Shown here: in pieces, positions 19,637 through 52,099 of the stretch
Layout of the letters: every line of letters starts with the position of its first letter
Position numbering within the stretch: position 1 is the first letter of the stretch
Virus record (IMG/VR): IMGVR_UViG_3300034102_002082
Location: 1 to 64,000 of that record
Direction: 5' to 3' (one strand)
From: a virus
DNA length: 64,000 bases
Position numbers and translations under genes: made by a program
The notes under the pieces: generated by a model
Database searches by the model: none
What the model was told of the DNA's origin: nothing
The model's input: the letters and a program-made list of their open reading frames with translations, nothing else

Positions 19637-20179
19637 ATGAAATATACAGATTTTTACAGTGAGTTATTAGAAATTAAGTCTCAACAAGATACACCAGAAT
19701 TCAAGAATTGGTTCAAAAATTCTAAAGTAGTTGACGATCAAGGGAATCCGCTTCGTGCGTATCATGGTACTAGCAAGGATAAAGACTTTTCTAAATTTAC
19801 TGAGAAACAGAATGGAATGTGGTTTACGAGTTCTCCAGAATCGGCATCGTCGTATGCAGATCAAAATGATAGCATGAAATCTACGTATGGTTATCGTGGA
19901 AATATCGAGCATATTAACACAGCATCAAGAGTTATTCCAGTATATTTATCTATCCAAAATCCAGCAATTAACTTAACGAAAGAACAAGAAGATAAATTGA
20001 GATATTCTGACAATTATACTAAAGCGCAGCGAGAAGTTTTCGCTGAATTAAAGGCGCAAGGACATGATGGTGTCGATATGGGTGGAGGAGTATATGTTGT
20101 ATTTAGACCAGAACAGATAAAATCTGCAATAGGAAACACCGGAAAATTTAATCCGTCAGATCAACATATACACAAATAA
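19637..20179 (+). CDS. ADP-ribosyltransferase-like protein with putative capsid-targeting leader, 180 aa
   Basis: The leader MKYTDFYSELLE belongs to the conserved set in this window and ends in an L-x-E cleavage-like site. The enzyme part is the phage 'polyvalent' ADP-ribosyltransferase type: FKNWFKNSKVVDDQGNPL, AYHGTS (NAD-binding strand), GMWFTSSPESASSYAD, and the typical ending VVFRPEQIKSAIGN. These domains transfer ADP-ribose from NAD to proteins or nucleic acids. By analogy with T4 Alt, which is packaged and injected, I infer a head-packaged enzyme acting on the host. ATATTTATA lies exactly 3 nt before the ATG and no Shine-Dalgarno is seen. Confidence 0.75.
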   Translation: MKYTDFYSELLEIKSQQDTPEFKNWFKNSKVVDDQGNPLRAYHGTSKDKDFSKFTEKQNGMWFTSSPESASSYADQNDSMKSTYGYRGNIEHINTASRVIPVYLSIQNPAINLTKEQEDKLRYSDNYTKAQREVFAELKAQGHDGVDMGGGVYVVFRPEQIKSAIGNTGKFNPSDQHIHK

Positions 20180-20196
20180 ATATCGGTATAGTAATT

Positions 20197-20529
20197 TTAC
20201 ACCAGCGTGATTAGGCTATTTAGATCATCGAGTATAGTATTACAGATATCCACCAATTTTTTTCTGTTTTCTATCTCAAAATTATGAATAATATATTCAT
20301 TGTCTGACATAGCTAATTTTGTCTCTTCTATCAATTGTATAAGTTCATCCAATCTATCTTTGTGAGATAGCTTTCTCTGCTTTCCGCTGAATATATCGAG
20401 TATCAGAGTTTCTTTCTTTTCCAGTATTACGTTTATTCTATCCATAGCTACTTCCGTTTCGCTCTTTGGAATCCAGAAAAATATAACCGATCTGATTATT
20501 CTATAAATTGAGAATGCGATATTCGACAT
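20197..20529 (-). CDS. Hypothetical protein, possibly membrane-anchored, 110 aa
   Basis: An N-terminal hydrophobic stretch (FSIYRIIRSVIFFWI, residues 5-19) with arginines is followed by a charged helical body (RLDELIQLIEETKLAMSD). It could be a membrane-associated coiled-coil protein. No family recognised. It follows 20532-21068 by two nucleotides. Confidence 0.55.
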   Translation of the reverse strand: MSNIAFSIYRIIRSVIFFWIPKSETEVAMDRINVILEKKETLILDIFSGKQRKLSHKDRLDELIQLIEETKLAMSDNEYIIHNFEIENRKKLVDICNTILDDLNSLITLV

Positions 20530-20531
20530 AA

Positions 20532-21068
20532 TTATTTTCCTTTTCTGGTTGCTCTGAATTTTAGTTCTCCGTTTATTTGTTTAAAGTAGTAAATATCGGA
20601 TTTTTCTGGTATATACTTCGATATTAAAATATTAGTTTTGCTCTTGAAGTCATATCCCTTGAACACCGAATTAACAATTATTGGTTGTCCCATTTGGATA
20701 TCAAATACTGCTACCTTATTGTTTTCTAATTCTATATAAAAGAAGCAATCCGAAAGTGGATCTAGTGATGTCCATTCTGTCGGTAAATCTCTACCGGAAT
20801 AATCCTTATTTGTATTATCCTTATTTTGCTGCGGTTTCTTTCTATTATTTTTTCTCAATCCGAATGTTTCATCATGATCGTAATAATAAACTGTTACGTT
20901 ATCTCGTAGAGTGCTTAGTAACCCATCTACAATTGCTATAGAACCCCATTCGAGTGGGTTTCGCATATTCGTATCATACAAAATATAATTGCTGTTTTTA
21001 AGCCCTATACAGTAATATGTATCGATTCCTTTTTCTATCTTCTTAAAAGTTTTCGGTTTTCTTGCCAT
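20532..21068 (-). CDS. Hypothetical protein, 178 aa
   Basis: Unrecognised. Basic ends (MARKPKTFKKIEKG; KFRATRKGK) around two similar beta-rich parts: YYCIGLKNSNYILYDTNM and FFYIELENNKVAVFDIQM. The likeness of these halves, each followed by a residue pattern with P and a hydrophobic run, suggests an internal duplication. A low-complexity linker (KKPQQNKDNTNKD) joins them. Confidence 0.55.
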   Translation of the reverse strand: MARKPKTFKKIEKGIDTYYCIGLKNSNYILYDTNMRNPLEWGSIAIVDGLLSTLRDNVTVYYYDHDETFGLRKNNRKKPQQNKDNTNKDYSGRDLPTEWTSLDPLSDCFFYIELENNKVAVFDIQMGQPIIVNSVFKGYDFKSKTNILISKYIPEKSDIYYFKQINGELKFRATRKGK

Positions 21069-21316
21069 TACACTTTTTCTATTTCAAAATTTATGTTACA
21101 TTCCGACAATATTTTACCACCGATTTTACACTTATCCTCCGTACCGAAATATAGAACTGGATTTCTGTCAGATTCTATATCCGTTAATATTTTGTCCACT
21201 AGATTGGAATCTACGTCACCATCGTATAATCTAGATAGTGTCGCTATGATCGCCATGTCATTAATTAGTTCATTTTCGGTCGTTTTTACCACCAATGAGT
21301 AATTTTCGTTTTTCAT
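21068..21316 (-). CDS. Small hypothetical protein, 82 aa
   Basis: Unrecognised. Helical with acidic patches (GDVDSNLVDKILTDIESD). Its stop overlaps the start of the next gene by one base (TAATG), a coupled pair. Confidence 0.55.
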   Translation of the reverse strand: MKNENYSLVVKTTENELINDMAIIATLSRLYDGDVDSNLVDKILTDIESDRNPVLYFGTEDKCKIGGKILSECNINFEIEKV

Positions 21317-21340
21317 TACGAAAACACTAAATCTAAAAAA

Positions 21341-21727
21341 TTATTTTGTCAAGACATTTTTCTTGCTTTGTTCGTTTCTGGTGAAGAATTGCCATAACTT
21401 TGAACAGACAAGCTTTATCGAATCTCTATCCCTAGCTATGTCAAGACCTAATCCGTGATCGGTTATCTTCTTATTTAAGTTATTTGATATTGGGTTAGGT
21501 GTAGATTTCCCGTCGATTATATTGATAAATTCTATAATGGTCTTTCTCTGTGTGATAGGATCTTCTACCGAACTGTATAATATCGGTGAAATTATGTTAT
21601 TGAATATCTTTTTTTCTTTCGCATCCGTTAATGTTAATGCGAAATTTTTTAAATCATTCATCATTTCTGCTTCCCACAGAACTTCGGATAAACATTCTTT
21701 TATTAATTCTTGTAATTTATTCTTCAT
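21341..21727 (-). CDS. Hypothetical protein with helical leader, 128 aa
   Basis: The N-terminus MKNKLQELIKECLSEVLWEA is amphipathic and holds [LI]-x-E sites (LSE, LWE). It resembles the leaders MNIHLIIKECIDEVLSE (28446) and KELKNMIAECIVEE (31709). I treat these as a second class of possible prohead-targeting leader. The rest is helical, with a polar tail, and is not recognised. TATAAATAT on the plus strand (ATATTTATA in sense) ends 3 nt before the ATG. Confidence 0.55.
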   Translation of the reverse strand: MKNKLQELIKECLSEVLWEAEMMNDLKNFALTLTDAKEKKIFNNIISPILYSSVEDPITQRKTIIEFINIIDGKSTPNPISNNLNKKITDHGLGLDIARDRDSIKLVCSKLWQFFTRNEQSKKNVLTK

Positions 21728-21756
21728 AGTTATAAATATAGTCTATTTCCCAAATT

Positions 21757-21800: not shown

Positions 21801-21849
21801 GGGTTCGGATTGAACCTCCACCAGATTATTTATTCAAATAATCAAAATT

Positions 21850-24990: not shown

Positions 24991-24992
24991 TA

Positions 24993-25480: not shown

Positions 25481-25672
25481 TTATTCGATAATCTTTTTTA
25501 TAATCAGTTTTTCTGGTAATATCGACTCATACGTGCCATAAATTTCACAAGAAAACATTATTTTTGTTGCTTTTTCTTTTCCGAATAACTCTATTAATTT
25601 TTTGTAAGTGTTATTAGAATCAAGAACTTGTGAGTCGTTATTTGTTTGTATATTAAATTTGCTATTTTTCAT
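25481..25672 (-). CDS. Small hypothetical protein, 63 aa
   Basis: The ATG at 25672 overlaps the upstream stop by ATGA and is preferred over 25684. Sequence MKNSKFNIQTNNDSQVLD, then a helical KKLIELFGKEKATKIMF. Unrecognised. Confidence 0.55.
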   Translation of the reverse strand: MKNSKFNIQTNNDSQVLDSNNTYKKLIELFGKEKATKIMFSCEIYGTYESILPEKLIIKKIIE

Positions 25673-27363
25673 ATCATGTCCCATGTTGGTAAATTGTATT
25701 GGTTAGAATTTCCGAATAAATATTCAACAATCATATCGGGAGAAACCATGATATAATTGTATTTTTTGTCGGTTCCGAATAAATGCATAACTTTAAGAAA
25801 ATGTTGAACGTCTTCGTATTCATTGTTCAATTCTATCGTCTTTTGCTCCATCGAATTATCGTAAGCTTCCATTTTCCCATTCTTCAAGTCTATTACCAAC
25901 GGTATGGCTAAATACTCATCTATCCATTCTTGTATCTGTTCTCTTGGTTTTCCCACATATTTTAAATGGCTAGGAAAATTTTTCTTGAGTAATCTTGAAA
26001 ATAATTGGTCTACGTTGGTCTTATTGGATTGCACTACAGATATTTCTGTTATTTTTCTATTTTCTGAAATAGTTACTACCAATTGTTTCATTTCAGAAAA
26101 GAATTTTTCCAATTCGCTATAATCAGTCTTCCTCACCCGTAAAGTAAATGTAACTCTAAGATAATACATATCTTGATTATAATCAAATTGTATATGGGTC
26201 AATTTCTTGTATTTATTCGACAACACGGAAGCAAGCGCATCTGCCTTCTCTTGAGAAAACCCCATTACGCCATCTCCACCAAGATCATATTCTATGTCGC
26301 CATCAATTATATCTGGTTCGCCGCTATTTACGGTTAATGATACATCCTCAATAGCTACACCAGTATTCTTAAGTTCTCTTCTAACATCGTTTATGTACTC
26401 GGTTATTTTCCCGTATAAGTTTATACCTTTCTTCGTTACTTCATCTTCTGAGTCATAATATCCACCAAGTTTAAAATATTTTTTACTTTTTATTTCTTTA
26501 TTTATGTTGTTATCTGCCCATTTTCGTAACTCATTTTTGAACTGTGAAATAGGTACCCCGTAAATTTTAGAAACATTATAATATATTTCATCACTACTGG
26601 ATAATGACGCGAACGGTTTTATTAAACATCTAGATATGGGTTTCTTTATATTGTTATCGTTATCTGTTATTAAATATGCGACAATTGTACCATCGGATAC
26701 TTCATCCTTAACATATTGAGCATTCGATCCTTTGATTGGTTTTGTATCGTCGTTCTTCCCCTTATATACTATTTTATCCGTACCTAGATTCATGCAACTT
26801 GTCCAATTCCTGTCGGTTGACATACCGGCAATGTCGTATGGGTGTCTACTTATCGCAATTTTTAATTTTTTCCCGAATATCTGGCGATATGGATCTTCAT
26901 TGAATACTTTCAATAACTCAGTTTCATTTGGTAGATATTTTTGTATTACTTTTCCGAGTTTATATGGTATTTTATTTCCGTTCTTATCCTTCTTTACTTC
27001 TCCTGTCTTGTTATCAACGAAGTAACAAACGTTATCGACATAATTTTTAAAACTACCAACGCTCATATCATCATCCGATGTAGAATTGCTCAATGTAAAA
27101 TATCCATCTTGTGTATTTGTATTATTTTGTAACAACCCTATCAATCTATGGTATGATGTTTCTGTTCTGTATCTGGTTATGACATAATCAACTAATTCCT
27201 GATTTATCGGAACATCAAATGGAATATATATTCTATGTTTTCCATTAAATACATGATCCAGCAACGTCTTATATTTTCCACCAGAAATTTTTGTGTATTG
27301 CTTTGCTGTAGAGAGTGGCAATGCCATTTCCACTATATCGGAGTAAAAATCTTTATATATCAT
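25669..27363 (-). CDS. Large leader-bearing protein of the W/G-x-x-C group, 564 aa
   Basis: Start at 27363 aligns the leader MIYKDFYSDIVEMALPL with its relatives; an ATG at 27372 adds three residues. The middle holds ISRHPYDIAGMSTDRNWTSC, a segment resembling MGHCGN (31248 gene) and STKWCIS (45803 gene): a Trp or Gly, two residues, then Cys, followed by a beta-rich part (GTIVAYLITDNDNNIKKPIS). I know such proteins from T4-like phages only as hypothetical. The C-terminal 200 residues are beta-rich. It is the downstream end of an operon of leader-bearing genes. Inferred role: head-packaged protein of unknown activity. Confidence 0.6.
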   Translation of the reverse strand: MIYKDFYSDIVEMALPLSTAKQYTKISGGKYKTLLDHVFNGKHRIYIPFDVPINQELVDYVITRYRTETSYHRLIGLLQNNTNTQDGYFTLSNSTSDDDMSVGSFKNYVDNVCYFVDNKTGEVKKDKNGNKIPYKLGKVIQKYLPNETELLKVFNEDPYRQIFGKKLKIAISRHPYDIAGMSTDRNWTSCMNLGTDKIVYKGKNDDTKPIKGSNAQYVKDEVSDGTIVAYLITDNDNNIKKPISRCLIKPFASLSSSDEIYYNVSKIYGVPISQFKNELRKWADNNINKEIKSKKYFKLGGYYDSEDEVTKKGINLYGKITEYINDVRRELKNTGVAIEDVSLTVNSGEPDIIDGDIEYDLGGDGVMGFSQEKADALASVLSNKYKKLTHIQFDYNQDMYYLRVTFTLRVRKTDYSELEKFFSEMKQLVVTISENRKITEISVVQSNKTNVDQLFSRLLKKNFPSHLKYVGKPREQIQEWIDEYLAIPLVIDLKNGKMEAYDNSMEQKTIELNNEYEDVQHFLKVMHLFGTDKKYNYIMVSPDMIVEYLFGNSNQYNLPTWDMI

Positions 27364-27415
27364 TATTACCATATAAATATATGTTTATTTTAATATGTGC
27401 AAATAATTATACAAT

Positions 27416-27817: not shown

Positions 27818-28446
27818 TGTGCTTTATGTACTTGATTAGATAGACCATAATCGACTATCACAACAGATTCTTTCCCGTTTCTATTTACTAGACCATAACT
27901 GTTTAATCTACCAAGATCCCCGTATCCTTTATCGAAATCTAACATGAAGGATTTTACTCTATCAGCAAATTCGTTATTATCATATTTTTCGATTAACTCT
28001 TTTGGTGGTTCCGAATAATGATTATTTCCGCTATATCGCAGATAATCATGAAGCTCATTTATATTTTTTATGCCGGTCAATTCTCTAAATTTCGACATGG
28101 ATAATTTTTTTGCCAATTCCATCTCTACCCATCGATATCCAACCTCATCAAAATCGTAAACTTTAGCAATAATATCTCCATACATATCTTGGGCACCCCA
28201 ATCAACTTCTACTTCATTTTGCGCAACCCCCGCATCATTCTTCGCCATTTTTAAAGCTTTCGTATCATCAATAACAAATACGACTCTACCGGTACCACTA
28301 GATATCCTCTGTAGGTGTTGAGCCGCGTACTTTACTTTCCCTGTATATGAATGTATTTTATTGAATTCATCCTTGTTCCACGAAGATGGGTAATCTTCCG
28401 ACAATACTTCATCTATACATTCCTTTATTATTAAATGTATATTCAT
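27808..28446 (-). CDS. Protein-kinase-like protein with helical leader, 212 aa
   Basis: Glycine-rich strand RISSGTGRVVFVIDDTKALK, with the Lys at the position of the ATP-binding lysine, then AQNEVEVDW for the helix-C Glu. Near the C-terminus, GDLGRLNSYGLV and VVIVDYGLS stand for the catalytic loop and a DFG-like DYG. At about 210 residues it is a minimal kinase fold, as in several phage kinase-like proteins. The N-terminus MNIHLIIKECIDEVLSE is a possible second-class head leader with I-x-E and L-x-E sites. Its start overlaps the NUDIX gene's stop by ATGA. Activity untested; it could be a pseudokinase. Confidence 0.6.
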   Translation of the reverse strand: MNIHLIIKECIDEVLSEDYPSSWNKDEFNKIHSYTGKVKYAAQHLQRISSGTGRVVFVIDDTKALKMAKNDAGVAQNEVEVDWGAQDMYGDIIAKVYDFDEVGYRWVEMELAKKLSMSKFRELTGIKNINELHDYLRYSGNNHYSEPPKELIEKYDNNEFADRVKSFMLDFDKGYGDLGRLNSYGLVNRNGKESVVIVDYGLSNQVHKAHYR

Positions 28447-29000
28447 AATCCGAGCCTTTGATAACTGACATATACCAATGGATCAACTATTTCATCGCTA
28501 ATATACATCCAACGTAAAGGTGCTAAGTCATTTTCTGTTCCGTCTCCTTTTGGTTTGGATGGGGATTCTGCGTCAGTCAGATCAATACCAAACAAATAAT
28601 AAGTTGTGTCTGAACTCTTTGTTCCTCTGCACGTACCAAGTTCTTTTATCTTCGATATATCAACATCGTAACCAGTTTCCTCGAATAATTCTCGTTTTGC
28701 TGCGGCTTTCGGTTCTTCTCCCTTATCAACACCACCAGTTACCGATGATAATGATCTACTTTCTCCCCAGCATGGAGTTATTTCTTCTCTAATACCGATT
28801 TCATATGCATCTCTGCCTGCTCTTCTATATGGTAATATAGAGATGATCTTTCCATCACATCGTATTTCATGTGAATATGTGTATGTACCAGTTGGTGTTT
28901 CCATTTCACGTAGTTCTAACCACTCATCACCACCTAATTTTTTAAAATCTGGTTTGGTAGATTCGGTTAATATGTCTTTGTAAAATTCTTTATATTTCAT
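28443..29000 (-). CDS. NUDIX hydrolase with putative capsid-targeting leader, 185 aa
   Basis: Leader MKYKDFYKDILTE, then a complete NUDIX box: GGVDKGEEPKAAAK followed directly by RELFEETGYD, matching G-x5-E-x7-R-E-U-x-E-E-x-G-U. NUDIX enzymes hydrolyse nucleoside diphosphates linked to another group, for example ADP-ribose, NAD, NADH or capped RNA ends. T4 has one (NudE.1), but not with a head leader. With three ADP-ribosyltransferase-like proteins in the same set, a substrate related to ADP-ribose or NAD is attractive but is inference. It is coupled by ATGA to the kinase-like gene. Confidence 0.85.
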   Translation of the reverse strand: MKYKEFYKDILTESTKPDFKKLGGDEWLELREMETPTGTYTYSHEIRCDGKIISILPYRRAGRDAYEIGIREEITPCWGESRSLSSVTGGVDKGEEPKAAAKRELFEETGYDVDISKIKELGTCRGTKSSDTTYYLFGIDLTDAESPSKPKGDGTENDLAPLRWMYISDEIVDPLVYVSYQRLGL

Positions 29001-29009: not shown

Positions 29010-29516
29010 TTAAAATTTTGGATAAACGATTATTCGCCCATCTTCTCTTACTGTCCCTTTGTGTGTTTTCAATAACTTCTTATATATAGCAGCAGCACCA
29101 TCACTTAATTCTTTATCTGACGTAATACTATATTTCTTATCGTCTAATAACCACAAATAAAACTCCATTCCATATCCATAACCACGAGCGTTTCTAGTAA
29201 AACCAATGGTGTTTATAATAACTGAATTACCATTTTTTCCTAAATTGCACGAACCAATATATTCGTCTTTATTATTAAAGAAGTGAAGGTTGTGTGGTCC
29301 CGCATTCTGTATTCCATCTCGATCTACATAAATATCAAAACCATTGGTTCCATCTTCATACCATAGGTCTTCCATTTTTGGTTGCTTTGATGGGAGAACT
29401 TGTTCATCATCATATGAACTATGAGAATTTAACGCATCAATAGCAACATACAAATCACTAATGTTTGATTGTAAATTTTCTAAGACTAAATGAGAATAAA
29501 AATCCTTGTAATGCAT
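29010..29516 (-). CDS. GNAT-like acetyltransferase with putative capsid-targeting leader, 168 aa
   Basis: Start at 29516 aligns the leader MHYKDFYSHLVLE; longer frames overlap the upstream gene. The enzyme part shows NTIGFTRNARGYGYGMEFYL, which fits GNAT motif A (R-x-x-G-x-G for acetyl-CoA pyrophosphate). It is followed by ITSDKELSDGAAAIYKKLL, typical of a phage GNAT subgroup with SD-x-x-x-x-GA-x-x-W/Y-x-x-L. Target unknown; T4-type and other phages acetylate or otherwise modify host proteins. Gap to the upstream gene is four nucleotides. Confidence 0.6.
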   Translation of the reverse strand: MHYKDFYSHLVLENLQSNISDLYVAIDALNSHSSYDDEQVLPSKQPKMEDLWYEDGTNGFDIYVDRDGIQNAGPHNLHFFNNKDEYIGSCNLGKNGNSVIINTIGFTRNARGYGYGMEFYLWLLDDKKYSITSDKELSDGAAAIYKKLLKTHKGTVREDGRIIVYPKF

Positions 29517-29520: not shown

Positions 29521-31248
29521 TTAAATATCAAGATTTTCAAAAAAAGAGTTAATTGCTTCTTTTTCGTCGTATCTATCGAACCCATAATTTGGGACATGCA
29601 TATCACCATCGATACTAAAATTATATCTGTGGAATATATTAAAGTGTGGATCAATATCAATAGATCCAGTATCAATCACTTCGATAAATTCTACCAAATC
29701 CCATTTCTGATATACTGGTGAGTTAAATTTGCGAGTTGGGTCTTCATATCCTACATGAAACATATATCCCGTATCGTCTTGTATAAATTTTAGATCTGTT
29801 ATTCCTTCAAGAAAATTCTCCGTCATTTCCGATAATATACCAACTTCATATCCTACCCGCACAGCAGAATTTAATTGTTCTATTATCAGATCTTCATTAT
29901 CGTATAAATAGTCGAATTCATTAATATCTTCGTCGTCATTGGTCGAAGTTTTGTTACTTACGTAGCTATCGACACCCTTTGATTTATACCTACTGTCTCT
30001 AGATACCATATCAAATAGTCTTTCTGTTGAATTTTTGTCGTCGTGTATATTGCCATGATAGTGGTTTTCCATATAGTCACCGTCTATAACGTATTGCTTG
30101 TAATATTTTAACTTCTGTGGTTCTTGTGTCGATGGTATGTCTTGCCACAACTCTTCAATATTTTTCCACGATACGATACGAATCGAACCATTATTGGTGA
30201 ATTGAACTAGGTTTCTAGTGTTTGGTGGGAGTCTATCCAATATTAAATTCTTAACCCGTTCCGTGAGTCCTTCTTCTTTATATATTAATTTCAACGGCTT
30301 TAATTCTGGTCTTGCTACATATAATTTTCGCCTTTCTGATTCATCTAAGTCATCAACACTGAAGTTCTGCTCTGGTGCGTATCCACCTCCACGAATTCCT
30401 TTTATGAAAAATGAACTACCATCTTTTAATTTTAATAAGCTTATTATATACTTGTGATAAATTTCGGCTGGCTTTTCGTTGGCTCTGCCTTTCATTTCTC
30501 CCAACATACCAGTTGATTTATCCAATATAAAGGTACACGAAGGTCTACCAAATATTTTGTCTCCACGTTTTGTAATTTTCCTCAAACTTAAAACTGTGTC
30601 CGATGGTTTGTGTGATGCTGTATTTCCGCAGTGTCCCATAGCATCACCCTCTTTCCTACAGAATGGTATCGATAAATCAAACCAAATAAAACCATCTGGA
30701 AACTTTATTAATTGCGTCATTGAATCTATTTCATCTGTCATATCGATCCATTGATTATCCTCTCCATGTGATTCCTTCCATTTGTCCTCATATTTCTGGA
30801 ACAGATAAATGATTTTCCTAGGATCTTCGTAAGAAAACCTAAAATTCTTTATTTCTGATATTGGTAACGATAAAAAATGCTCAAGAGTGCCTAGTTCTAA
30901 TGAATACCGAATAGAACCATTCGTGAGTTCCTTCGGTGCTGCATATTTTTCATTTTTAATTATATTACTAAAATCGTCTAGCCATTTACTCTTACTCTTA
31001 TCATATGCTCCGCGATAAGTAGTATGATAGTTATGCCTTTCATTCTCCCATGCCAAATATCTCCACCAACGTAGATACCATTGAATAATATCGTCTCTCC
31101 TTAACGACTTAACTACTTGAGAAACATGCCTTTTATCGTATTCTGAATATGGTCCATTGGTGCCCGTTAAAATTGGGAGATACCTATCATATCTAGCCTC
31201 CAATAATAATTCAGAGTAAAAATCCGAAAATTTCTGCTCAATTATCAT
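29521..31248 (-). CDS. Large leader-bearing protein of the W/G-x-x-C group, 575 aa
   Basis: Starts at the ATG at 31248 (MIIEQKFSDFYSELLLEA), a divergent form of the leader with LLE-A. A purine-rich GGAAGAGGA lies about nine nucleotides upstream. Residues around 200-260 contain DAMGHCGNTASHK and RPSCTFILDKSTGMLGEMKG, the same kind of Cys-centred element as in the genes at 25669 and 43662. An acidic segment near 430 (NKTSTNDDEDINEFDYLYD) precedes the C-terminal part. Function unknown, presumed head-packaged. It overlaps 31238-31654 by 11 nt. Confidence 0.6.
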   Translation of the reverse strand: MIIEQKFSDFYSELLLEARYDRYLPILTGTNGPYSEYDKRHVSQVVKSLRRDDIIQWYLRWWRYLAWENERHNYHTTYRGAYDKSKSKWLDDFSNIIKNEKYAAPKELTNGSIRYSLELGTLEHFLSLPISEIKNFRFSYEDPRKIIYLFQKYEDKWKESHGEDNQWIDMTDEIDSMTQLIKFPDGFIWFDLSIPFCRKEGDAMGHCGNTASHKPSDTVLSLRKITKRGDKIFGRPSCTFILDKSTGMLGEMKGRANEKPAEIYHKYIISLLKLKDGSSFFIKGIRGGGYAPEQNFSVDDLDESERRKLYVARPELKPLKLIYKEEGLTERVKNLILDRLPPNTRNLVQFTNNGSIRIVSWKNIEELWQDIPSTQEPQKLKYYKQYVIDGDYMENHYHGNIHDDKNSTERLFDMVSRDSRYKSKGVDSYVSNKTSTNDDEDINEFDYLYDNEDLIIEQLNSAVRVGYEVGILSEMTENFLEGITDLKFIQDDTGYMFHVGYEDPTRKFNSPVYQKWDLVEFIEVIDTGSIDIDPHFNIFHRYNFSIDGDMHVPNYGFDRYDEKEAINSFFENLDI

Positions 31249-31654: not shown

Positions 31655-31708
31655 AGTATGTGTTAATAAATATGGTTTTATTATCGTTTTGATATATTTA
31701 TAATCAAT

Positions 31709-40848: not shown

Positions 40849-41928
40849 TTAATAACTCATATGTGTATGTCCACCATCTTGTTTAATCACCGTTAAACCA
40901 TTCTTTTTAAAGGTATTTATCAGCAATGGATTGACGACATCAATCTTTAATTTAATCTTTGAATTGTAGCCATTCTTTAGTGATTTATAATCATCTAACC
41001 CAAGCTTTACTAACTTATCACCTAGTCCTTTATTTCTGTGTTCTGGTTTGACGATTAGATCAAATGAGAATTCTTCTCCCTTACTTGAGTTCTGTAATTC
41101 TGTATATAAAGCTCCGAGAACTTCACCATCTTCAACTAATACAACATTTAATTCTTTCCCTCTAAGAATTGATATTCCAGAAGACTTTTCTAGCTCGTTT
41201 ATTTGCTCCCAAAAATCCGGTATATCTTCCCCGTCATCTGACTGTAATTGCCCATCTTGAATATACTTTGTTTCTATTTCTTCAGTCAATGCCAATTCCG
41301 GTGAATGAACCGGTGAATTTGCATACGGAGGAGTCTCGACTGGTTCTTCTTTCTGTTCTTTGCTTCCACCCTTATCTATCAATTTCTTAACGTCTTTAGC
41401 TAACTCGTAGAAACTACCGTTTGGTAATATATATTGGTCAAATGTGCTATTCTTTCCACCTAATTGACCAATCTGTTCCTCATCAGTTTCATATAAACCA
41501 GATGGTCCTTTTTTTACGTCCGATTGATATACTTGTATTATCCCCGTTAATGGTTTTGATGTATCGACTGGTAACTTTTTTATAGCATCGGTATGACTCT
41601 TTAGGTTCTTGCCGTGTGCATAATCATTAAAGTCACTAGATACTGGCTTATCATTCCAGTTTATTATGTTGAACTTTATTTTATAATATGATGCTTTGTA
41701 ATAAAAAGTGAAGAATCCAAGAATTGATGTGATCGATTTTTTCGGAACTCTATGGTCGGTAGCTATTCCAATTGATGTGTATGATATATCTGGTTCAAAT
41801 ACGTTCCCGATCTGATCATCATCTAGATCTAAAGCAAGCTTGAAAGCGGAATATATCGAAGACTGTAAAGAGTTGGGTGGAATAACCACTTCATTCAGAA
41901 TATGTGAGTAAAAATCCTTATAATTCAT
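40849..41928 (-). CDS. GNAT acetyltransferase with putative capsid-targeting leader, 359 aa
   Basis: Leader MNYKDFYSHILNE, then an unrecognised domain of about 220 residues, then a GNAT domain over the last 110. The latter has NVVLVEDGEVLGALYTEL, DLIVKPEHRNKGLGDKLVKL (R-N-K-G-L-G is motif A, binding acetyl-CoA) and NTFKKNGLTVIK. The N-terminal domain includes NDYAHGKNLKSHTDAIKK and LTGIIQVYQSD and may provide targeting or another activity. ATATTTATA in sense lies 4 nt before the ATG. Presumed packaged and injected; target unknown. Confidence 0.75.
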   Translation of the reverse strand: MNYKDFYSHILNEVVIPPNSLQSSIYSAFKLALDLDDDQIGNVFEPDISYTSIGIATDHRVPKKSITSILGFFTFYYKASYYKIKFNIINWNDKPVSSDFNDYAHGKNLKSHTDAIKKLPVDTSKPLTGIIQVYQSDVKKGPSGLYETDEEQIGQLGGKNSTFDQYILPNGSFYELAKDVKKLIDKGGSKEQKEEPVETPPYANSPVHSPELALTEEIETKYIQDGQLQSDDGEDIPDFWEQINELEKSSGISILRGKELNVVLVEDGEVLGALYTELQNSSKGEEFSFDLIVKPEHRNKGLGDKLVKLGLDDYKSLKNGYNSKIKLKIDVVNPLLINTFKKNGLTVIKQDGGHTHMSY

Positions 41929-41940
41929 ATGCTATAAATA

Positions 41941-42849
41941 TTAATTTAAAATCCTAACGTTCTTTATTTCTGTCACATCTATTGTTTTCCAGTCCACGTT
42001 AGATTCTTGTGAAACATCATTTACATTAATAACACCAGTAAACAATGATCTAGTTCCCTTCAAGTCTGCATATCCCTCTGCGTATTCTTTTGATGGTGAT
42101 ACATATAAATCCTTCGGTAGCTTGCCAGAATCTTTTATTCGTAATACCATAGAGCTATCGTGAGATGCATATATTCTAACTTGTTTACCGGAAGGATTAA
42201 GTAATTTGTTTACCATCTTAATCGTTTCTTCCGATGCTTCATCATTACCCTCAAACATTTCTAGCTTACCATTATAATCTACAGTTAATGATATCTGCAT
42301 ATCATCGTCAGCTGAAGCTGATACTTCTATTACTACAGGGAAAAATTGTTGGATATTATGGTTATGTTCCCCATCAAACAATAAACTATATTTTAATTGT
42401 TCTATATCAACATACGGAATATGGCTCGTTAATTCTTTAACTTTCTTTATTACGTCATTTCTTAGGTTAATAAAATCGACAGCAAATTCGGAAGTTTTAC
42501 TTTTTAGAACTCTATTCAGAGTATATTCATTTTTATGTTGTGGTTTTTTTAGGATATTAGCAATAAAATCGAAGTTTATTAATTCTGGGTTTCTTATTGG
42601 TTCGGTAGCTTTTGGTTCCAATTCATCCATAACGTATTCTAGTTCATCGTGTAATTTATCATATTGTCTCTTTAATGATATATATTCTTCCGAATCCGCA
42701 TATCTACTATGCATATCACCCATACCATTTTTCCTAATGGTTTGGAGTTTATTGAATACGATATCTATTTCTTTACTCAACTCGGATCTTCTTGCTATCA
42801 GATCCGAATTTTCTTTTAGTATGTGTATGTAAAAATCTTTGTATTTCAT
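41941..42849 (-). CDS. Leader-bearing protein, possible degenerate ADP-ribosyltransferase fold, 302 aa
   Basis: Leader MKYKDFYIHILKE-N, then a coiled-coil segment (residues 15-75, RSELSKEIDIVFNKLQTIRK), a middle domain, and a C-terminal part VRIYASHDSSMVLRIKD, then KDLYVSPSKEYAEGYADLKG and LFTGVINVNDV. The last looks like the ADP-ribosyltransferase 'yhGT ... lyft-s-eyA-gYa' pattern, with Y-A-S-H for the usual Y-H-G-T. It may be inactive or divergent; the call is weak. Gene gap to the next is one nucleotide. Confidence 0.5.
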   Translation of the reverse strand: MKYKDFYIHILKENSDLIARRSELSKEIDIVFNKLQTIRKNGMGDMHSRYADSEEYISLKRQYDKLHDELEYVMDELEPKATEPIRNPELINFDFIANILKKPQHKNEYTLNRVLKSKTSEFAVDFINLRNDVIKKVKELTSHIPYVDIEQLKYSLLFDGEHNHNIQQFFPVVIEVSASADDDMQISLTVDYNGKLEMFEGNDEASEETIKMVNKLLNPSGKQVRIYASHDSSMVLRIKDSGKLPKDLYVSPSKEYAEGYADLKGTRSLFTGVINVNDVSQESNVDWKTIDVTEIKNVRILN

Positions 42850-42850: not shown

Positions 42851-43660
42851 TCAAAATGGTAGGTCTTTATTGTCTGGTTGTTGTATATGTTGTCTTGTTG
42901 TGATTTTTGGTTTTTCGTTTTTCACATTAAATCCACCACCTTTATACATCTCCGGTTCTTCATCATCGTAACCAATTTCAGCTTTGAGTAATCTATCATG
43001 TTTTTGATATGGATTTTCTCCTTCCCAGAATGGATCTATCAATACAAATTCTCCATTATCCCTTTTCATTATATTTCCCTGTGTAAAATCCGGTGTTCCG
43101 AACTCTTTATCCGCCGTAATTAAGAACCAATAATCTTTTTTGAATTCTATTATAGATGGACGACTTTTTTCAATTTCTTTTATCTTGCTATATGTTTGTT
43201 TCCAAATATTATTCCTGTCTTTCATTTTTTCCAGATACTCATTATCTCCACCGTAAACTTTATAAAAGTCTATATCTAAGAATTCTTCCTTTGTTATTGG
43301 ATTTAATTTCTCAGTTTTTATTATATATAAATGAGAATGAGATGTTGGTCGGGTAAAGTTTGGGACTATTCTTCTCGGTTTATCGAAGAATTTAGGAAAA
43401 GATTTCCTTGGATTTTTTAACGCAAATCTAACAAATTTTAAATATGGAACGTCGCTATGGAATATTTTTAAAACATATTTCCAAGACGGATGTGATAGTA
43501 CGGTTGCGTATGTTCCTTGCCCCAATATTTTACCACCATGTTTCTCAAAATCTGATAGAAGTTCACGTAATTGTAAATCATTGTTCGTCGGGTCAGATAA
43601 AAGTTCCCCAATGCTATCATACTTCTCAAACAGATATGAGTAAAAATCTTTGTATTTCAT
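42851..43660 (-). CDS. Protein-kinase-like protein with putative capsid-targeting leader, 269 aa
   Basis: Leader MKYKDFYSYLFE-K. A glycine-rich loop GKILGQGTYATVLS is followed by WKYVLKIF with the ATP-site Lys. A catalytic-loop-like DFTQGNIMKRDNGEFVLIDP follows, in which D-x-x-x-x-N and a D-P-F take the places of HRD-x-x-x-x-N and DFG. The order and spacing are those of a small kinase. The polar C-terminus (QHIQQPDNKDLPF) is unstructured. With 27808 it makes two kinase-like proteins in the set. Confidence 0.65.
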   Translation of the reverse strand: MKYKDFYSYLFEKYDSIGELLSDPTNNDLQLRELLSDFEKHGGKILGQGTYATVLSHPSWKYVLKIFHSDVPYLKFVRFALKNPRKSFPKFFDKPRRIVPNFTRPTSHSHLYIIKTEKLNPITKEEFLDIDFYKVYGGDNEYLEKMKDRNNIWKQTYSKIKEIEKSRPSIIEFKKDYWFLITADKEFGTPDFTQGNIMKRDNGEFVLIDPFWEGENPYQKHDRLLKAEIGYDDEEPEMYKGGGFNVKNEKPKITTRQHIQQPDNKDLPF

Positions 43661-43661: not shown

Positions 43662-45803
43662 TTATGTGTTTCTCCAATTTTTTATTTTTGCTGCTTCTGG
43701 TGTTGGATACTTTGGTTTTACATTTAATAAAATCACTTCTCCCTCATCACTCCCTATCATATCCGGTATATCGAGTGCCACATCAAACCCAAACTTATGA
43801 TTAAATTCTTGTGTCGATAGATATTTTTCTACCTTCTCTATGTCTATACTACCATCGAAAGATTTTAATGCTAACGTTGTGTAACCAACCAAACCGAAGA
43901 GTCTCATAGTAGGAGACTTAGAGAATGATAATGCGGATAAAAAATATTTGAGATATTCTTCATCGGAGTTGTCTATGTTATCTGGGTATACCTCATCTCC
44001 TCTATATAATAATCGATTAGATGTATATTTAAACATTTCCTTATATCTGTCATCTAGTTTACTCCACGCATTTAATAATCCGATTCTATCCTGTGTATGG
44101 TTTCCTTGGTGTATGTTAACCATAACTAGAAAATCATATAAAATATAGTCAGCTTCCGTTGGTAATAAATAATTCTCTTGTTGGATTTTTATGTATTCCT
44201 GTTCTTTCCCCCTTTTATTTTTTATAAGATATAATTCTTTTATAGTAATATCGTATCGTTTTCTGTCCTTATAATACTTGTTAATGTACATGGAGAATAT
44301 CGCATTTGTCGGTGACTCTCCATGAGATATTAAACGACCACCATTTTCAAGTACAATTAAATAATTACCGGATTGTTTAGTAAATAACTTATTTATTCCT
44401 TCACACATAAGAAGTTCTCGATAAAAATCTTTATATTGTATCTCATTTATTCTTATCGCATTGAAGAGATCGATTACTTCTTGATATCCCAGTTTCTGAT
44501 AAAATTTTACTATGTCCTCCGTAGAATTTATTTTCGGTGGTAAGTCGAATGTTTTTGTTTCGTCTTGATCGAACCCAACACTTAAATCCGCACCAAATAC
44601 ATAAGCTTCAAAATCCGTTTCAAAATGTACCATACTATAAAATTCTTTAATTTGTTCCTTCGTTAATATATTTGTTAGTGTGTCGATCATACTCTCATAG
44701 AAATCACTGAAATAATTTATATATTTTATCGACCTGTTAAACTTTTCAAAATCTTTTTGCTCTAAAGAATTACGTAGAAATTCCGTAAACTCTTTATCCG
44801 TATCAAATTGACTATTAATGTGGTATATGCGAGAAAACGGAAGTTCAAACTTCATACGATTGCCTTGGGACATACACAAATTATAACATATGTTTTTTAA
44901 TTTGTCAAATCCGATAGCTCCCATTATTATACCCGATATGTCAAGATTTTTACTAACATCAAATTTAGAATTCACTATATTAAAAATGCCACTGAGAAAT
45001 TTCCTTAATTCTTTTCTAAATTCTCCTTCACCAAAATAGATATTTGCTCCTGATATGAATTTTTTCTGTTTATGTCCACCTTTTCTTTTTATTCTATTAT
45101 TCTTTTCTGAATCAAAATAGTTAATTATACCAGAAGAAATTTTTTCCGGTAGAGTTGATAAAAATTCAGTAGCACCGGATTGACCCAATTCAGTATCATT
45201 GGCATCATATGCTTCTATATCGTTTGTCTTACCGACCAAAGCGATTTTCCATAGAGGATTTATCTTGTCCAGATTTCTGTTTTTCACTATTACTATCGTA
45301 TTCGCCTTTTCATCATAATATGAATCCCAGTAAGTTTCATTCGATGTTGATATACACCACTTAGTTGAACCACCATAATGTTTGGCAGCTTCATGGGATT
45401 CTGGTGCAATTACCAGCCAATCATCGGTATCTGCAATTACGTCGATATCACCCGATAGTTGTTCTTTTTTCGAAACGGTTCTATTTTTTAGTATATCTGA
45501 TAAATCATCTATAGTTTTTACTTTGAATATATCGATTCCCTTAACCCTACTATCGAACTCCCTAATATTGTCCATTAGTTCATTTTTCTTACTTCCTCGC
45601 CAGAAATTTTTATGGAAATAATCAAACCCCTTATCGTCGTAAATATCGTTTAGACGTTGGCTAATCCATTTCAGATATTTCTTAGATGTAGATGGATCTT
45701 CGTCTATTATATAATTTATATCGTCCGGAGTTAGTAATTTATCTACTCTATTACGGAAATCATCTTCTCTACCCTCGATCAATAATATTTCTAATAATTT
45801 CAT
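43662..45803 (-). CDS. Large W-x-x-C-group protein with an internal leader, 713 aa
   Basis: The first 450 residues begin with MKLLEILLIEGREDD (L-I-E then G) and contain AAKHYGGSTKWCIST (about 145-160) followed by a beta-rich part (NTIVIVKNRNLDKINPLWKI). They are thus related to the proteins at 25669 and 29521. At about residue 455 a second leader-like segment, EIQYKDFYRELLMCEG, starts a C-terminal part of about 260 residues. The codon before QYKDFY is ATA where sister genes have ATG, so two genes seem to have fused after loss of a start codon. The gene start overlaps the upstream stop by ATGA. Function unknown. Confidence 0.65.
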   Translation of the reverse strand: MKLLEILLIEGREDDFRNRVDKLLTPDDINYIIDEDPSTSKKYLKWISQRLNDIYDDKGFDYFHKNFWRGSKKNELMDNIREFDSRVKGIDIFKVKTIDDLSDILKNRTVSKKEQLSGDIDVIADTDDWLVIAPESHEAAKHYGGSTKWCISTSNETYWDSYYDEKANTIVIVKNRNLDKINPLWKIALVGKTNDIEAYDANDTELGQSGATEFLSTLPEKISSGIINYFDSEKNNRIKRKGGHKQKKFISGANIYFGEGEFRKELRKFLSGIFNIVNSKFDVSKNLDISGIIMGAIGFDKLKNICYNLCMSQGNRMKFELPFSRIYHINSQFDTDKEFTEFLRNSLEQKDFEKFNRSIKYINYFSDFYESMIDTLTNILTKEQIKEFYSMVHFETDFEAYVFGADLSVGFDQDETKTFDLPPKINSTEDIVKFYQKLGYQEVIDLFNAIRINEIQYKDFYRELLMCEGINKLFTKQSGNYLIVLENGGRLISHGESPTNAIFSMYINKYYKDRKRYDITIKELYLIKNKRGKEQEYIKIQQENYLLPTEADYILYDFLVMVNIHQGNHTQDRIGLLNAWSKLDDRYKEMFKYTSNRLLYRGDEVYPDNIDNSDEEYLKYFLSALSFSKSPTMRLFGLVGYTTLALKSFDGSIDIEKVEKYLSTQEFNHKFGFDVALDIPDMIGSDEGEVILLNVKPKYPTPEAAKIKNWRNT

Positions 45804-46519
45804 TTTTGTAATAGTGTTAAATACTTAGGATCTATTTTCCCATTGATTATAACTGTTTCTTCCCACTGCCCATCACTACTATCGGGACTATATCTATTAT
45901 CCCCTATTATATGTGCTATTTGTCCTCTAACGGCACCATCTAATACATCTGGTTCCATTGATACGTATGGTGTCACTCCATCTCGCTTCATTGCTGATGT
46001 ATCGATCTTGAATATGTTATCACCATATTCACCAAGAAGTATTAGATCAATGTTACTTACGGTAAATACCCCACTGGTTCCTCTATTACTTATACCGGTT
46101 CCGGTAGTTGTGTTTAATCCATTTTCTTTTATACCATCTACGTTCTCGTCCCTCGTTCCGTGGTATAATGGTGATGGTGAACCCCAAAAATCTTTATTGA
46201 AAGTTTCCTCGACATTAGATTCTATCTCAGAAAAATCAGAATCATATAGGAACCTGTCCTTCTTATGGAAAGTCAATGGATAATTTTGTGCAGTTGGGTC
46301 AAATTCTATAACAGCTTGGTCAGTTAGTATGTACGAATTTCCCGAAAATGGTATGTTAATATCGTTATACTTTACCTTCATGTTGTCTAGAACTATTTTG
46401 ATATCTTCTAACGGTTCCGTTTCTGGATTTTCTTGTAGATAATCATCATATTCATATTCTATATCACTTGCGGAATGACCTTCGATTATCAGGTGTTGAT
46501 AAAAATCCTTATATTTCAT
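45800..46519 (-). CDS. ADP-ribosyltransferase-like protein with putative capsid-targeting leader, 239 aa
   Basis: Start at ATG 46519, two nucleotides after the upstream stop. Leader MKYKDFYQHLIIE-G with a clean I-I-E|G site. The C-terminal domain has SPLYHGTRDENVDGIKENGL, GTSGVFTVSNID and WEETVIINGKIDPKYL: H-G-T strand, a Ser/Thr-x-x turn and a late Glu, as in PARP/KptA-like ADP-ribosyltransferases. The N-terminal 110 residues are acidic and unrecognised. Predicted to modify host molecules with ADP-ribose after injection, like T4 Alt. Confidence 0.7.
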   Translation of the reverse strand: MKYKDFYQHLIIEGHSASDIEYEYDDYLQENPETEPLEDIKIVLDNMKVKYNDINIPFSGNSYILTDQAVIEFDPTAQNYPLTFHKKDRFLYDSDFSEIESNVEETFNKDFWGSPSPLYHGTRDENVDGIKENGLNTTTGTGISNRGTSGVFTVSNIDLILLGEYGDNIFKIDTSAMKRDGVTPYVSMEPDVLDGAVRGQIAHIIGDNRYSPDSSDGQWEETVIINGKIDPKYLTLLQK

Positions 46520-46521: not shown

Positions 46522-47136
46522 TCAATAAGTAAAATCGTTTATGATCCTATAATTTATATTAAAAGCATCAAATAGAAGTCTAAATTCCGCCAAACATTGT
46601 TCCTTTGCTCCACCCACTAAATAGCAACCAGATAATTTTTTTAAATCCGAAATCACAACATCTGGTATATTCACGGAGTCATTTTCGATAATATCTGGCA
46701 AATCAGTAAATTCGTTCCAATCATCTGCAAATAATTTTTCCCACTCATCGGTAGTTACGTCACGACTGTCGTATTTTTTATTCATAACCATAAATCGAAT
46801 AGCCTTAATAATATAAGCTCTATCCATCCCATTGTCCATCCACACACGAAAAAATCCGTATCCTTTATCAATAAATTTCATATTGGGTATCACATCATCA
46901 TTCAACCCATGTTCTAGATAGTAGTCTATTATTGAATTTTTATCATCTTCACTTCCGATACTATCACCATTGAAATAAACTACAATCGGACCTTTTCTAT
47001 TGTTTAAAAAATTACAAATACCATCAACAATCCCACCACAATATTTATTGTATTCGGGTTGAACATCTACGACTACAGTTGGTGATGATAATGTTCCTTC
47101 ATTAATTAAATGTAAATAAAAATCTTTGTATTTCAT
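46522..47136 (-). CDS. Isochorismatase-like (cysteine hydrolase) protein with putative leader, 204 aa
   Basis: Start at ATG 47136. Leader MKYKDFYLHLINE-G (I-N-E|G). Then TVVVDVQPEYNKYC, which fits the D-x-Q strand of isochorismatase/nicotinamidase-type hydrolases. Near the end GCYLVGGAKEQCLAEFRLLF provides the nucleophilic Cys position, followed by INYRIINDFTY. The Lys of the Asp-Lys-Cys triad is not obvious. Relatives cleave amides such as nicotinamide, a product of ADP-ribosylation, so a link with the ART proteins is conceivable. Fold call moderate, activity unknown. Confidence 0.55.
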   Translation of the reverse strand: MKYKDFYLHLINEGTLSSPTVVVDVQPEYNKYCGGIVDGICNFLNNRKGPIVVYFNGDSIGSEDDKNSIIDYYLEHGLNDDVIPNMKFIDKGYGFFRVWMDNGMDRAYIIKAIRFMVMNKKYDSRDVTTDEWEKLFADDWNEFTDLPDIIENDSVNIPDVVISDLKKLSGCYLVGGAKEQCLAEFRLLFDAFNINYRIINDFTY

Positions 47137-47213
47137 ATATGTTAAAATAATAAATATCAATAAAACTTTTTATATTCGTTATTTGTCATATATATTCATA
47201 TTTATACATATAT

Positions 47214-50049: not shown

Positions 50050-50419
50050 TAATAACGAAATGTTTCATAAATTACTATCAGAGGCTCAAACGAATCTGAT
50101 TAGCAATAATATATTATACTCTAACCTTATATCCGATAGGGAAAAAGTTATAAAATTTTACGTAAAGAGAATAAATAAAGTACAGAAAAGAATAAGATCT
50201 ATTGGTAATGCCGTAAAAAGAGAAGAATCGAGAATACGGGAATGCAAAAAAATGCTCGGTATGTCGATTGATACAATACAAAAGGGAAAGGTAATTGTAA
50301 AGGAATCGATAGAACCTATAGATAAATTTGCTATAAATCCAATTACTGGAGAAGTAATCGAATTATCGTACGATGAAATAAATCAACTGTTAGAAGACAG
50401 AAAGAAAAAAACCCCGTAA
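50042..50419 (+). CDS. Coiled-coil protein, 125 aa
   Basis: Overlaps the previous gene by 8 nt. A long charged coiled coil (KVIKFYVKRINKVQKRIRSI, then KREESRIRECKKML) is followed by NPITGEVIELSYDEINQL. Unrecognised. The hairpin that follows ends the rightward unit. Confidence 0.6.
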   Translation: MDNNNEMFHKLLSEAQTNLISNNILYSNLISDREKVIKFYVKRINKVQKRIRSIGNAVKREESRIRECKKMLGMSIDTIQKGKVIVKESIEPIDKFAINPITGEVIELSYDEINQLLEDRKKKTP

Positions 50420-50437
50420 GTTACGGGGTTTTTATTT
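50405..50437. terminator. Bidirectional hairpin terminator
   Basis: AAAACCCCGTAA, short GT, TTACGGGGTTTTTAT: very stable stem between convergent genes; the right arm abuts the stop of 50437. Confidence 0.85.
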
Positions 50438-50979
50438 TATATTTTTGGTGTTATTTTACCCTTATTCGGATAAGCATTTATCGACCATCTGGCTGGTTTC
50501 CCATCTTTTGTCATATCTGACGTAATTCCGGCTCTTGGTTCCGTTATTTTTGCACCACCTTCGTTAACAGAAGATATAGTTTTGTTTAACGGAGTTCCGT
50601 CGATATCGCCAGTTATGTGTGGACCACTAGCAGACAACTTTTCTGAGTTATTGCCTGCTTCTATGTTTTCTTCTCCACCATCTGGATTTACGACAACGGC
50701 AGTAGATATATCACCTAGACTTTTACATTTTTCCATATTACTATAATAATGTGGGTCTTCCTTTAAATGATCCATCGCAATTTTTTGCGCTATAGTATCA
50801 TCATCGGTATGTTCATGTTCTTCGTCTGATCCTTTTTGTAATTCTGGTGCATTGAACTCTTCCGGTTTTTCTTCTACTGTATCTTTATTGAGATGTGAGA
50901 AGAAATCCTTGAAATTGATATCCGTAGAATCTAAGTCATGTGTTTCTTTCAATTTTACTTTTTTTATTTGTTTTTTCAT
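50437..50979 (-). CDS. Acidic protein with DUF5661-like motif, 180 aa
   Basis: A basic N-terminus (MKKQIKKVKLKETHD) is followed by an internal copy of the leader core (INFKDFFSHLNKDTVEE). Then DEEHEHTDDDTIAQKIAMDH and LKEDPHYYSNME match the pattern I know from DUF5661 proteins: an E/D-H cluster, then 'KIAxDHLxExPxYYxxL'. The remainder is polar and low in structure. The next gene (50984) carries a related NLKTNPKYYSKL segment. Likely a structural or packaged protein; no enzyme domain. Confidence 0.55.
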   Translation of the reverse strand: MKKQIKKVKLKETHDLDSTDINFKDFFSHLNKDTVEEKPEEFNAPELQKGSDEEHEHTDDDTIAQKIAMDHLKEDPHYYSNMEKCKSLGDISTAVVVNPDGGEENIEAGNNSEKLSASGPHITGDIDGTPLNKTISSVNEGGAKITEPRAGITSDMTKDGKPARWSINAYPNKGKITPKI

Positions 50980-50983
50980 AATT

Positions 50984-52099
50984 TTATTTCTTATTATTCA
51001 TTCCTCGCATAATAGATGATATTGATTCTATCCCGCGACCAGCAACTCTTTCCTTGATGCCAGCTTGTACAATTTCATTTGCTACGCTGTTTACTACTGG
51101 AGAATTTCTGTTTCTGTTTTTCATCATTTCATCGATAATGTTACCGACTTGTTTTATCTTTTCTTCTTGTGTTACTTTTAGATCAGGCATAAGCATTTGT
51201 AATTTTGAATAATATTTTGGGTTTGTCTTTAAATTGTTTACTACTATCTCCTTGGCTTTTTCTTTACTTGGTCTCATTTGTTTTGCCATCTCGTAACGAA
51301 GACCGGAAAAAATTTCATCTTTATCTAAACCATCGACATTTAGATCGACATCGCTAACATTGTCATATGGAGCAGATCCTAATATAGTGTTTCCGTTCAT
51401 TGGTGAATACCTAGTATTCCTCGTTTCGGATGAGAATTTGCTTGGATCTTGTGAGGTTCCATTAAATGTAGCTGCCCATCCAGATGCGGCGATACTACCA
51501 CCAGCAGCACCACCGTAACCTCCACCAGCACCATAATCTTCTAATATTCTGGTATGTTGCTTTTTGTTATCTGAATATATTACTCTATCGATATCTATTT
51601 CCATACCATCGAAACCGTCATAATCCAATAGATCGTTGCCCTCATCAGATTTTACATATGCTAATGTAATATGTGCTTTATAATCTGGATAATTATTTTT
51701 ATAAGATAATTCTTTTAGTTCATTATTAATTTGATTTAATACTTCACCAGTTACATCTATCTTTATAACATCAAAATCGTCCGTACTGAATTTGGTCACT
51801 TTACCTAATGTAGCTTTTATCTTACCTTCATACTTCTTTAATATTTCTCTGGCAGCATCCTCGTTACCATCTTCTAACCCGTACAGCAAGGTTATATGTG
51901 GCCATTCTTCTTTTCCCTTTGAATCATCCCCTTCTTCTTGATATAGAATATCATCCGGTATTTCTTCGATAAATTCATATACCTTCATTAGTACTGGTAT
52001 ACTGTCAGATTTAGTGGTCTCTGTCGGAGGAACTTCCGCCATGACACAATCCTTGAACTCTTCATTTAATAGTTGCTTATAAAAATCTTTGTATTTCAT
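50984..52099 (-). CDS. 2H phosphodiesterase with putative capsid-targeting leader, 371 aa
   Basis: Start at ATG 52099. Leader MKYKDFYKQLLNE-E, then a 2H phosphoesterase domain with both signature motifs, WPHITLLYGLE (about residue 73) and YKAHITLAYVKS (about 145): H-x-T-x twice, with the two His acting as acid and base. This family opens 2',3'-cyclic or 2'-5' phosphodiester bonds. It includes the phage anti-CBASS protein Acb1, which destroys cyclic oligonucleotide alarm signals, and LigT. After a Gly-rich linker (GAGGGYGGAAGG) comes a C-terminal region with NNLKTNPKYYSKLQM, as in 50437. A packaged anti-defence nuclease is an attractive inference. Confidence 0.75.
   Translation of the reverse strand: MKYKDFYKQLLNEEFKDCVMAEVPPTETTKSDSIPVLMKVYEFIEEIPDDILYQEEGDDSKGKEEWPHITLLYGLEDGNEDAAREILKKYEGKIKATLGKVTKFSTDDFDVIKIDVTGEVLNQINNELKELSYKNNYPDYKAHITLAYVKSDEGNDLLDYDGFDGMEIDIDRVIYSDNKKQHTRILEDYGAGGGYGGAAGGSIAASGWAATFNGTSQDPSKFSSETRNTRYSPMNGNTILGSAPYDNVSDVDLNVDGLDKDEIFSGLRYEMAKQMRPSKEKAKEIVVNNLKTNPKYYSKLQMLMPDLKVTQEEKIKQVGNIIDEMMKNRNRNSPVVNSVANEIVQAGIKERVAGRGIESISSIMRGMNNKK

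Follow-up and report, generated by a model that had tools for sequence, protein, structure and literature searches.

Here, we describe a short N-terminal leader, of the form M-K-Y-K-D-F-Y-x-x-[LI]-[LIV]-x-E, that recurs on a dozen unrelated enzymes of a phage whose 129,856-bp virus record (IMGVR_UViG_3300034102_002082) begins with the 64,000 bases analyzed here as the window. Because this tag resembles the capsid-targeting sequence (CTS) of the phage T4 internal proteins (IPs) and ends in the expected cut site, the phage probably loads these enzymes into its head and delivers them with its DNA. We consider it very likely that the leader acts like the T4 CTS, as a capsid-targeting propeptide specific to this lineage, with the enzymes being trimmed, packaged, and injected. 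Prohead targeting and trimming by the encoded protease were favored by every test that was run, a supported reading in which virion packaging and injection are inferred, and the leader set as a whole is well supported as extending the internal-protein system of T4.

A 16-column leader profile, built from 18 copies (14 from this genome and four from other contigs), matched 14 sites in the whole genome (E 7e-9 to 3e-5) and none elsewhere up to E = 10. Two of these copies are internal and 12 N-terminal (Table 1; genes are named by coordinate throughout). Every N-terminal start and both internal sites listed in a preliminary description of the window proved to carry the leader; these make up 11 of the N-terminal copies, and the twelfth, at 112043, lies beyond the window. 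N-terminal 13-mers gave 43 high-scoring pairs versus a maximum of one among 500 draws of internal windows, and the predicted proteome contains 16 copies of the core [YF]x[DE]F[YF], 12 at N-termini, versus a mean of 2.5 and a maximum of 7 in shuffled proteins. Beyond residue 18, the leader proteins have no mutual similarity except for a DUF5661 stretch common to 50437 and 50984, so that the earlier statement that the bodies differ completely holds apart from this pair. The motif [LIV]xE ends at leader residue 10-14 in 12/12 N-terminal copies versus 19/157 other open reading frames (ORFs; Fisher 2e-10; residues of 31248 counted from the leader itself), a test that is partly circular because the first search pattern demanded the E, which the profile search did not; strictly [LI]xE is found in 11 of the 12. 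The leader (K-Y-K-D-F-Y-x-x-L-L-x-E), read from the sequences, has no hydrophobic stretch, unlike a Sec signal peptide with its hydrophobic core following a basic N-terminus.

Leader residues are numbered here on the form MKYKDFYSHLLNE (e.g., Y3, F6, and E13). In T4 IPIII, mutations assign targeting to Y and F at CTS residues 4 and 7, whereas residues 8 and 10 serve processing; the gp21 protease cuts after L/I-x-E, and Asp at position 10 blocks cutting and not targeting (PMC9026906). By sequence comparison, [YF]3 and F6, the equivalents of T4 Tyr4 and Phe7, have the T4 spacing in 14/14 copies. As with the CTS of IPI, IPII, and IPIII, this is a short N-terminal leader on otherwise unrelated proteins, with a [YF]-x-[DE]-F core, an L/I-x-E end, and a gp21-type protease (PMC9026906, PMC12373910), whereas the window leader has 3-4 more residues separating F from the cut site and, unlike the three copies in T4, is present in 12 N-terminal plus two internal copies, on enzyme cargo and also inside fused ORFs. 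The preliminary description had assigned MKTYQEFIAE to the T4 internal proteins and Alt; in the T4 sequences, IPII and IPIII start in this way, IPI starts MKTFKEF, and Alt has another propeptide, of six residues, which is removed at an ITE site (PMC5694885). The description's claim that the set exceeds the known T4 one is correct for T4 on its own (Alt and three IPs) and not for the T-even phages jointly, for which at least 10 internal proteins are reported (PMC12373910).

The window phage encodes a T4-type head, including the gp21-type (S77) prohead protease, as previously described, and a gp23-type major capsid protein (MCP; 63628), in which LIEE-A occurs about where T4 gp23 is cut. Among named phages, its protease is nearest to those of Microcystis phage Mel-JY01 (52%) and Flavobacterium phage immuto (53%), and no relative was found to be closer than G001 (IMGVR_UViG_3300020048_000114, 70,436 bp), with 81% capsid protein and 68% protease identity.

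Table 1. Leader-tagged genes, TATTTAT boxes, and head genes
Feature	Leader start	Coordinates	Strand	Leader	Match
TATTTAT box of 19637		19626..19632	+		
ART-PolyVal ADP-ribosyltransferase	19637	19637..20179	+	MKYTDFYSELLE	PF18760 E 3e-22, 80 bits vs curated cut-off 31
564-aa protein without family match	27363	25669..27363	-	MIYKDFYSDIVE	
TATTTAT box of 27363		27373..27379	-		
NUDIX hydrolase	29000	28443..29000	-	MKYKEFYKDILTE	PF00293 E 8e-11
168-aa protein	29516	29010..29516	-	MHYKDFYSHLVLE	profile match for leader
575-aa protein, weakly PcfJ-like	31248 (core at 31236)	29521..31248	-	MIIEQKFSDFYSELLLE	E 0.1
TATTTAT box of unit 31654 to 31248, 29516, 29000		31666..31672	-		
GNAT acetyltransferase (C-terminal part)	41928	40849..41928	-	MNYKDFYSHILNE	PF00583 E 1e-7
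TATTTAT box of 41928		41934..41940	-		
302-aa protein, ADP-ribosyltransferase-like motifs by eye only	42849	41941..42849	-	MKYKDFYIHILKE	
Kinase-like protein, PHROG of T7 0.7 kinase	43660	42851..43660	-	MKYKDFYSYLFE	phrog_15752 E 4e-6
713-aa fused ORF: leader-like start MKLLEILLIE with 'G-x-x-T-K-W-C' (GTKWC) protein, internal leader, ~255-aa second unit		43662..45803	-		
Internal leader of 43662-45803		44400..44441	-	IQYKDFYRELLMCE	profile E 1.3e-6
Protein weakly ADP-ribosyltransferase/RNA 2'-phosphotransferase-like	46519	45800..46519	-	MKYKDFYQHLIIE	
Alpha/beta 'DVQP' protein, isochorismatase-like by motif only	47136	46522..47136	-	MKYKDFYLHLINE	
TATTTAT box of unit 47136, 46519, 45803, 43660, 42849		47150..47156	-		
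DUF5661 protein with internal leader-like stretch		50437..50979 (leader 50881-50919)	-	INFKDFFSHLNKD	profile match
2H phosphoesterase/Acb1-like domain, C-terminal DUF5661-like stretch	52099	50984..52099	-	MKYKDFYKQLLNE	see text
TATTTAT box of unit 52442 to 52099, 50979		52450..52456	-		
Prohead protease, S77/gp21 type		59501..60115	+		PF03420 E 2e-31
MCP start, gp23 type		63628..64000, continuing to 65229	+		
N-terminal leader beyond the window	112043		+	MKFKDFYVDDRLEE	

Family models agree with the cargo labels given previously for the ADP-ribosyltransferase (ART), NUDIX, GNAT, kinase-like, and 2H proteins, while the isochorismatase-like label found no family or confident fold match. The enzymatic activity of 50984 is predicted, with both of its Pfam scores barely exceeding the curated cut-offs (PF13563 E 2e-6, 28.1 bits vs 27; PF23474 E 3e-6, 27.3 vs 27). 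The T4 gene 57B (NC_000866, about 73952-74410), which we take to be Acb1, adjoins ipI and starts MMEFKDFSTGL, with an F-K-D-F core resembling the leader. For the DVQP protein (46522..47136), residues 1-15 are modeled at low confidence as a helix separate from the folded body; there was no family or PDB sequence match, and a fold search with the model gave weak matches (best E 0.025), isochorismatases among them at a template-modeling score of about 0.4, so we do not claim that label. The GNAT-like reading of the 29010..29516 protein was backed by no family model and was set aside. A PADLOC search gave no meaningful hit to defense proteins.

Leader tags swap while the cargo is conserved. G001 possesses its own set of leader genes, with leaders kept on cargo 46-53% identical to that of the window, including the homologue of the GNAT protein 40849..41928. 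The 2H phosphodiesterase leader is MKYKDFYKQLLNE in the window versus MDNPYKKFTQFLLNE in its homologue, the start of this enzyme being MDNPYKKFTQFLLNEDFKDC in G001 versus MKYKDFYKQLLNEEFKDC in the window, and weakly similar N-terminal units start MNYKDFYTVLLLEGR and MKLLEILLIEGR, respectively. More distantly, seven neighboring genes in a tight cluster of G062 (IMGVR_UViG_3300017917_002941, also L238/L350), a phage fragment unrelated to the window phage, start MRAxEF[ILV]xE or a near variant. One of the seven encodes a homologue of the DVQP protein (36%, E 4e-37) that starts MRANEFVTE; when the three sequences are aligned, M, F, and the final E of the leader survive, with a four-residue gap exactly at the extra length of the window leader. 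Another of the seven encodes a GTKWC protein with homology to the first unit of 43662-45803 (E 1e-5) and to its G001 counterpart (E 6e-10). MRAxEF leaders occurred together with an S77 protease in 5/18 contigs, all >140 kb, and in none of the smaller contigs or G062. Judged by eye, the MRAxEF-led cluster also includes GH19-like, nucleotidyltransferase-like, and GNAT-like proteins.

The leader is also found within fused chains. In the window ORF 43662-45803, INEIQYKDFYRELLMCEG lies between the GTKWC unit and the second unit, while in G001 a homologue of the 45800-46525 gene follows directly on the GTKWC gene before it, the two being fused, and its leader IWEAKYKDFYEHLNESKS stays in the chain; the second units differ, i.e., the window GTKWC gene is fused to another partner than that of G001. 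A leader at the fusion seam in two phages fits a processing site. A PDB sequence search with the second unit of 43662-45803 found nothing, and because its AlphaFold2 model was unusable (predicted local distance difference test score, pLDDT, of 44), its ART-like motifs remain a lead. The internal leader of 50437..50979 has Asp where the cleavage Glu is expected.

Every leader transcription unit in the window is headed by a TATTTAT box, which 26/181 genes (about 3.4 expected) have in the 40 nt before the start codon, mostly 10-24 nt away from it. Structural-block genes with this box are 32768, 34410, 57600, 61382, 69176, and 71931, and in G001 it precedes 18/79 genes (1.0 expected), its three leader operons included. 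The sharing of the box between leader units and structural genes suggests late expression. TATTTAT (positions 19626-72000 and G001) is likely a late-promoter element, and the resulting 5' untranslated region would be very short.

Virion evidence comes from Pseudomonas phage PA5oct, which encodes an S77 protease (E 7e-25) and whose homologue of the GTKWC cargo, gp279, is annotated as 'structural protein, ESI-MS/MS' (electrospray ionization tandem mass spectrometry, MS) and starts MKLFEVFTLYE, an [LI]-x-E leader. The pattern M[KR][LI].E[FVI].{1,2}[LI].E, built from gp279 and three adjacent starts, matched 4/1995 PA5oct starts, of which gp279, gp104, and gp105 are MS-detected and gp103 (64 residues) is not; about 31/183 genes in the inspected PA5oct stretches carry an MS note. 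Clustering of PA5oct N-termini returned an unrelated small-gene family as its largest cluster.

Comparable head-delivered proteins are known from other systems. Alt is likewise a head-packaged, injected, gp21-trimmed ART (PMC5694885, PMC5512222), and the window phage tags at least one ART (19637) and a probable second (45800), whereas the Alt propeptide has six residues (ITE), its C-terminus is also cut, and the sequence families differ. The polyvalent proteins (Iyer et al. 2017, PMC5512222) share with the window the ART-PolyVal domain and the idea of enzyme cargo injected with DNA, and their ARTs are predicted to be injected, as Alt is known to be; they are single long multidomain chains, unlike the window enzymes, which are mostly separate genes, each leader-tagged. 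SPN3US and phiKZ also have propeptides on ejected head proteins that are cut after x-E by an S77-type protease, with gp53 and gp54 having an identical N-terminus, but these propeptides are mostly >100 residues and on few proteins (PMC5694885).

Could the leader instead dock these proteins to a target other than the head core (e.g., tail, baseplate, host complex, or anti-defense assembly), with [LIV]xE being part of a helix and not a cut site? Leader cleavage is deduced, the leader is predicted to be helical, and the internal copies are without a clean site, all of which would suit such a tag; yet [LIV]xE ends every N-terminal copy versus 12% of other ORFs, the swapped leader MRANEFVTE of G062 keeps precisely M, F, and the final E, the phage encodes an S77 protease, and a cargo homologue with an LxE leader was detected in PA5oct virions, and we regard docking elsewhere as quite improbable. 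It also seems unlikely that the proteins are packaged and not injected, remaining in the empty head to help in assembling it or in condensing DNA: the cargo consists of enzymes (ART-PolyVal, NUDIX, GNAT, kinase-like, and 2H/Acb1-like), injection is predicted or known for ARTs of the ART-PolyVal and Alt kinds (PMC5512222), and T4 IPs with such leaders are injected, although the leader by itself is uninformative on ejection and T4 core proteins, not all of which are injected, have gp21 sites too (PMC9026906). Recent copying of one gene start, whether by duplication of the DNA or by recombination at a common 5' segment, would leave a functionless peptide and could explain why GATTTTTA is almost invariant at D5-F6-Y7, with same-codon use of 0.63 versus 0.52 expected. 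As the sole cause of the likeness, such copying is very improbable given synonymous changes at Y3, K4, and Y7, bodies that begin directly past the leader, the retention of the leader by G001 at 68-81% core-protein identity and on 46-53% identical cargo, and the independent occurrence of a common leader on seven genes of the unrelated G062.

Several observations nevertheless weigh against capsid targeting and cleavage. The leader DNA is nearly invariant at D5-F6 (most of the 14 copies read GAT TTT), so part of the likeness is due to shared ancestry of the leader, and both internal copies are without a perfect [LI]xE, ending M-C-E and N-K-D. The leader profile gives no match in T4, where the likeness holds only at the level of the core motif, and is silent in Mel-JY01 and immuto. 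Among 50 phages or fragments with a 58-80% identical MCP (many of them short), its matches were weak, short, and none convincing, which is why we describe the tag as lineage-specific; tblastn with the leader alone against known phages found no match, the query being too short for BLAST. The TATTTAT box also precedes genes outside the structural block (e.g., 90723, 94777, and 106928). Finally, virion detection comes from the PA5oct homologue gp279, an indirect case, and the PA5oct pattern is support and not proof, as it was chosen after seeing gp279 and three adjacent genes.

Capsid targeting nonetheless remains our preferred reading, with core binding, cleavage, packaging, and injection as its proposed steps. 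The tagged enzymes would be produced late, and the leader, a predicted short helix, would bind the prohead core by its [YF]-x-[DE]-F face, with the enzyme being built into the prohead. The gp21-type protease would then cut after [LIV]-x-E and free the mature enzyme within the head, and the ARTs, NUDIX, GNAT, kinase-like, 2H/Acb1-like, and other enzymes would be packaged alongside the DNA and reach the host upon infection, potentially reprogramming the host or blocking first-line defenses. A leader retained inside fused chains could serve as a processing site, while the internal copy at 50919, which ends N-K-D, would, by the T4 Asp10 precedent, target without being cut. As a tentative proposal, which we hold with reservations, T4-superfamily phages may share a pool of injected effector enzymes, to which each lineage adds its own capsid-address tag (MKYKDFYxxLLxE here and MRAxEF[ILV]xE elsewhere), with tags at fused-gene seams making some effectors polyproteins, to be split within the prohead.

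Other recurring N-termini were observed as well. L-I-x-E-C-x-x-E-[VI]-L (e.g., MKNKLQELIKECLSEVLWE) occurs in the window at 21341-21727(-), 27808-28446(-), and 31709-32122(+) and in G001 at 11912, 66141, and 66883, several of these genes also having a TATTTAT box, and is possibly another head leader. MKLKxxLxE occurs in the window at 32123-32725(-) and 61382-61810(+), elsewhere in the genome at 79607-80041(-), and in G001 at 27523, 37389, and 37883, its carriers being a lysozyme, scaffold-neighboring genes, and, for G001, a P-loop kinase-like protein. The related, cultured Flavobacterium phage immuto (NC_055915.1) has other common leaders, namely MENFDLKKFLVEN (genes 1803 and 118632), MKKQILSEQFRRMQKLAGIITES (25061 and 111675), and MKKSQLRQIIKEAL (102294 and 113188).

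Injected phage proteins are the first to face host defenses, and, apart from those of T4, few are known. Should the leader act as proposed, injected effectors could be listed from sequence alone via the tag that each phage lineage repeats, and a dozen candidates would be available here, including a candidate Acb1-like enzyme (against cyclic oligonucleotide-based antiphage signaling, CBASS) and at least one ADP-ribosyltransferase. The findings further suggest that fused effectors are processed inside the head.

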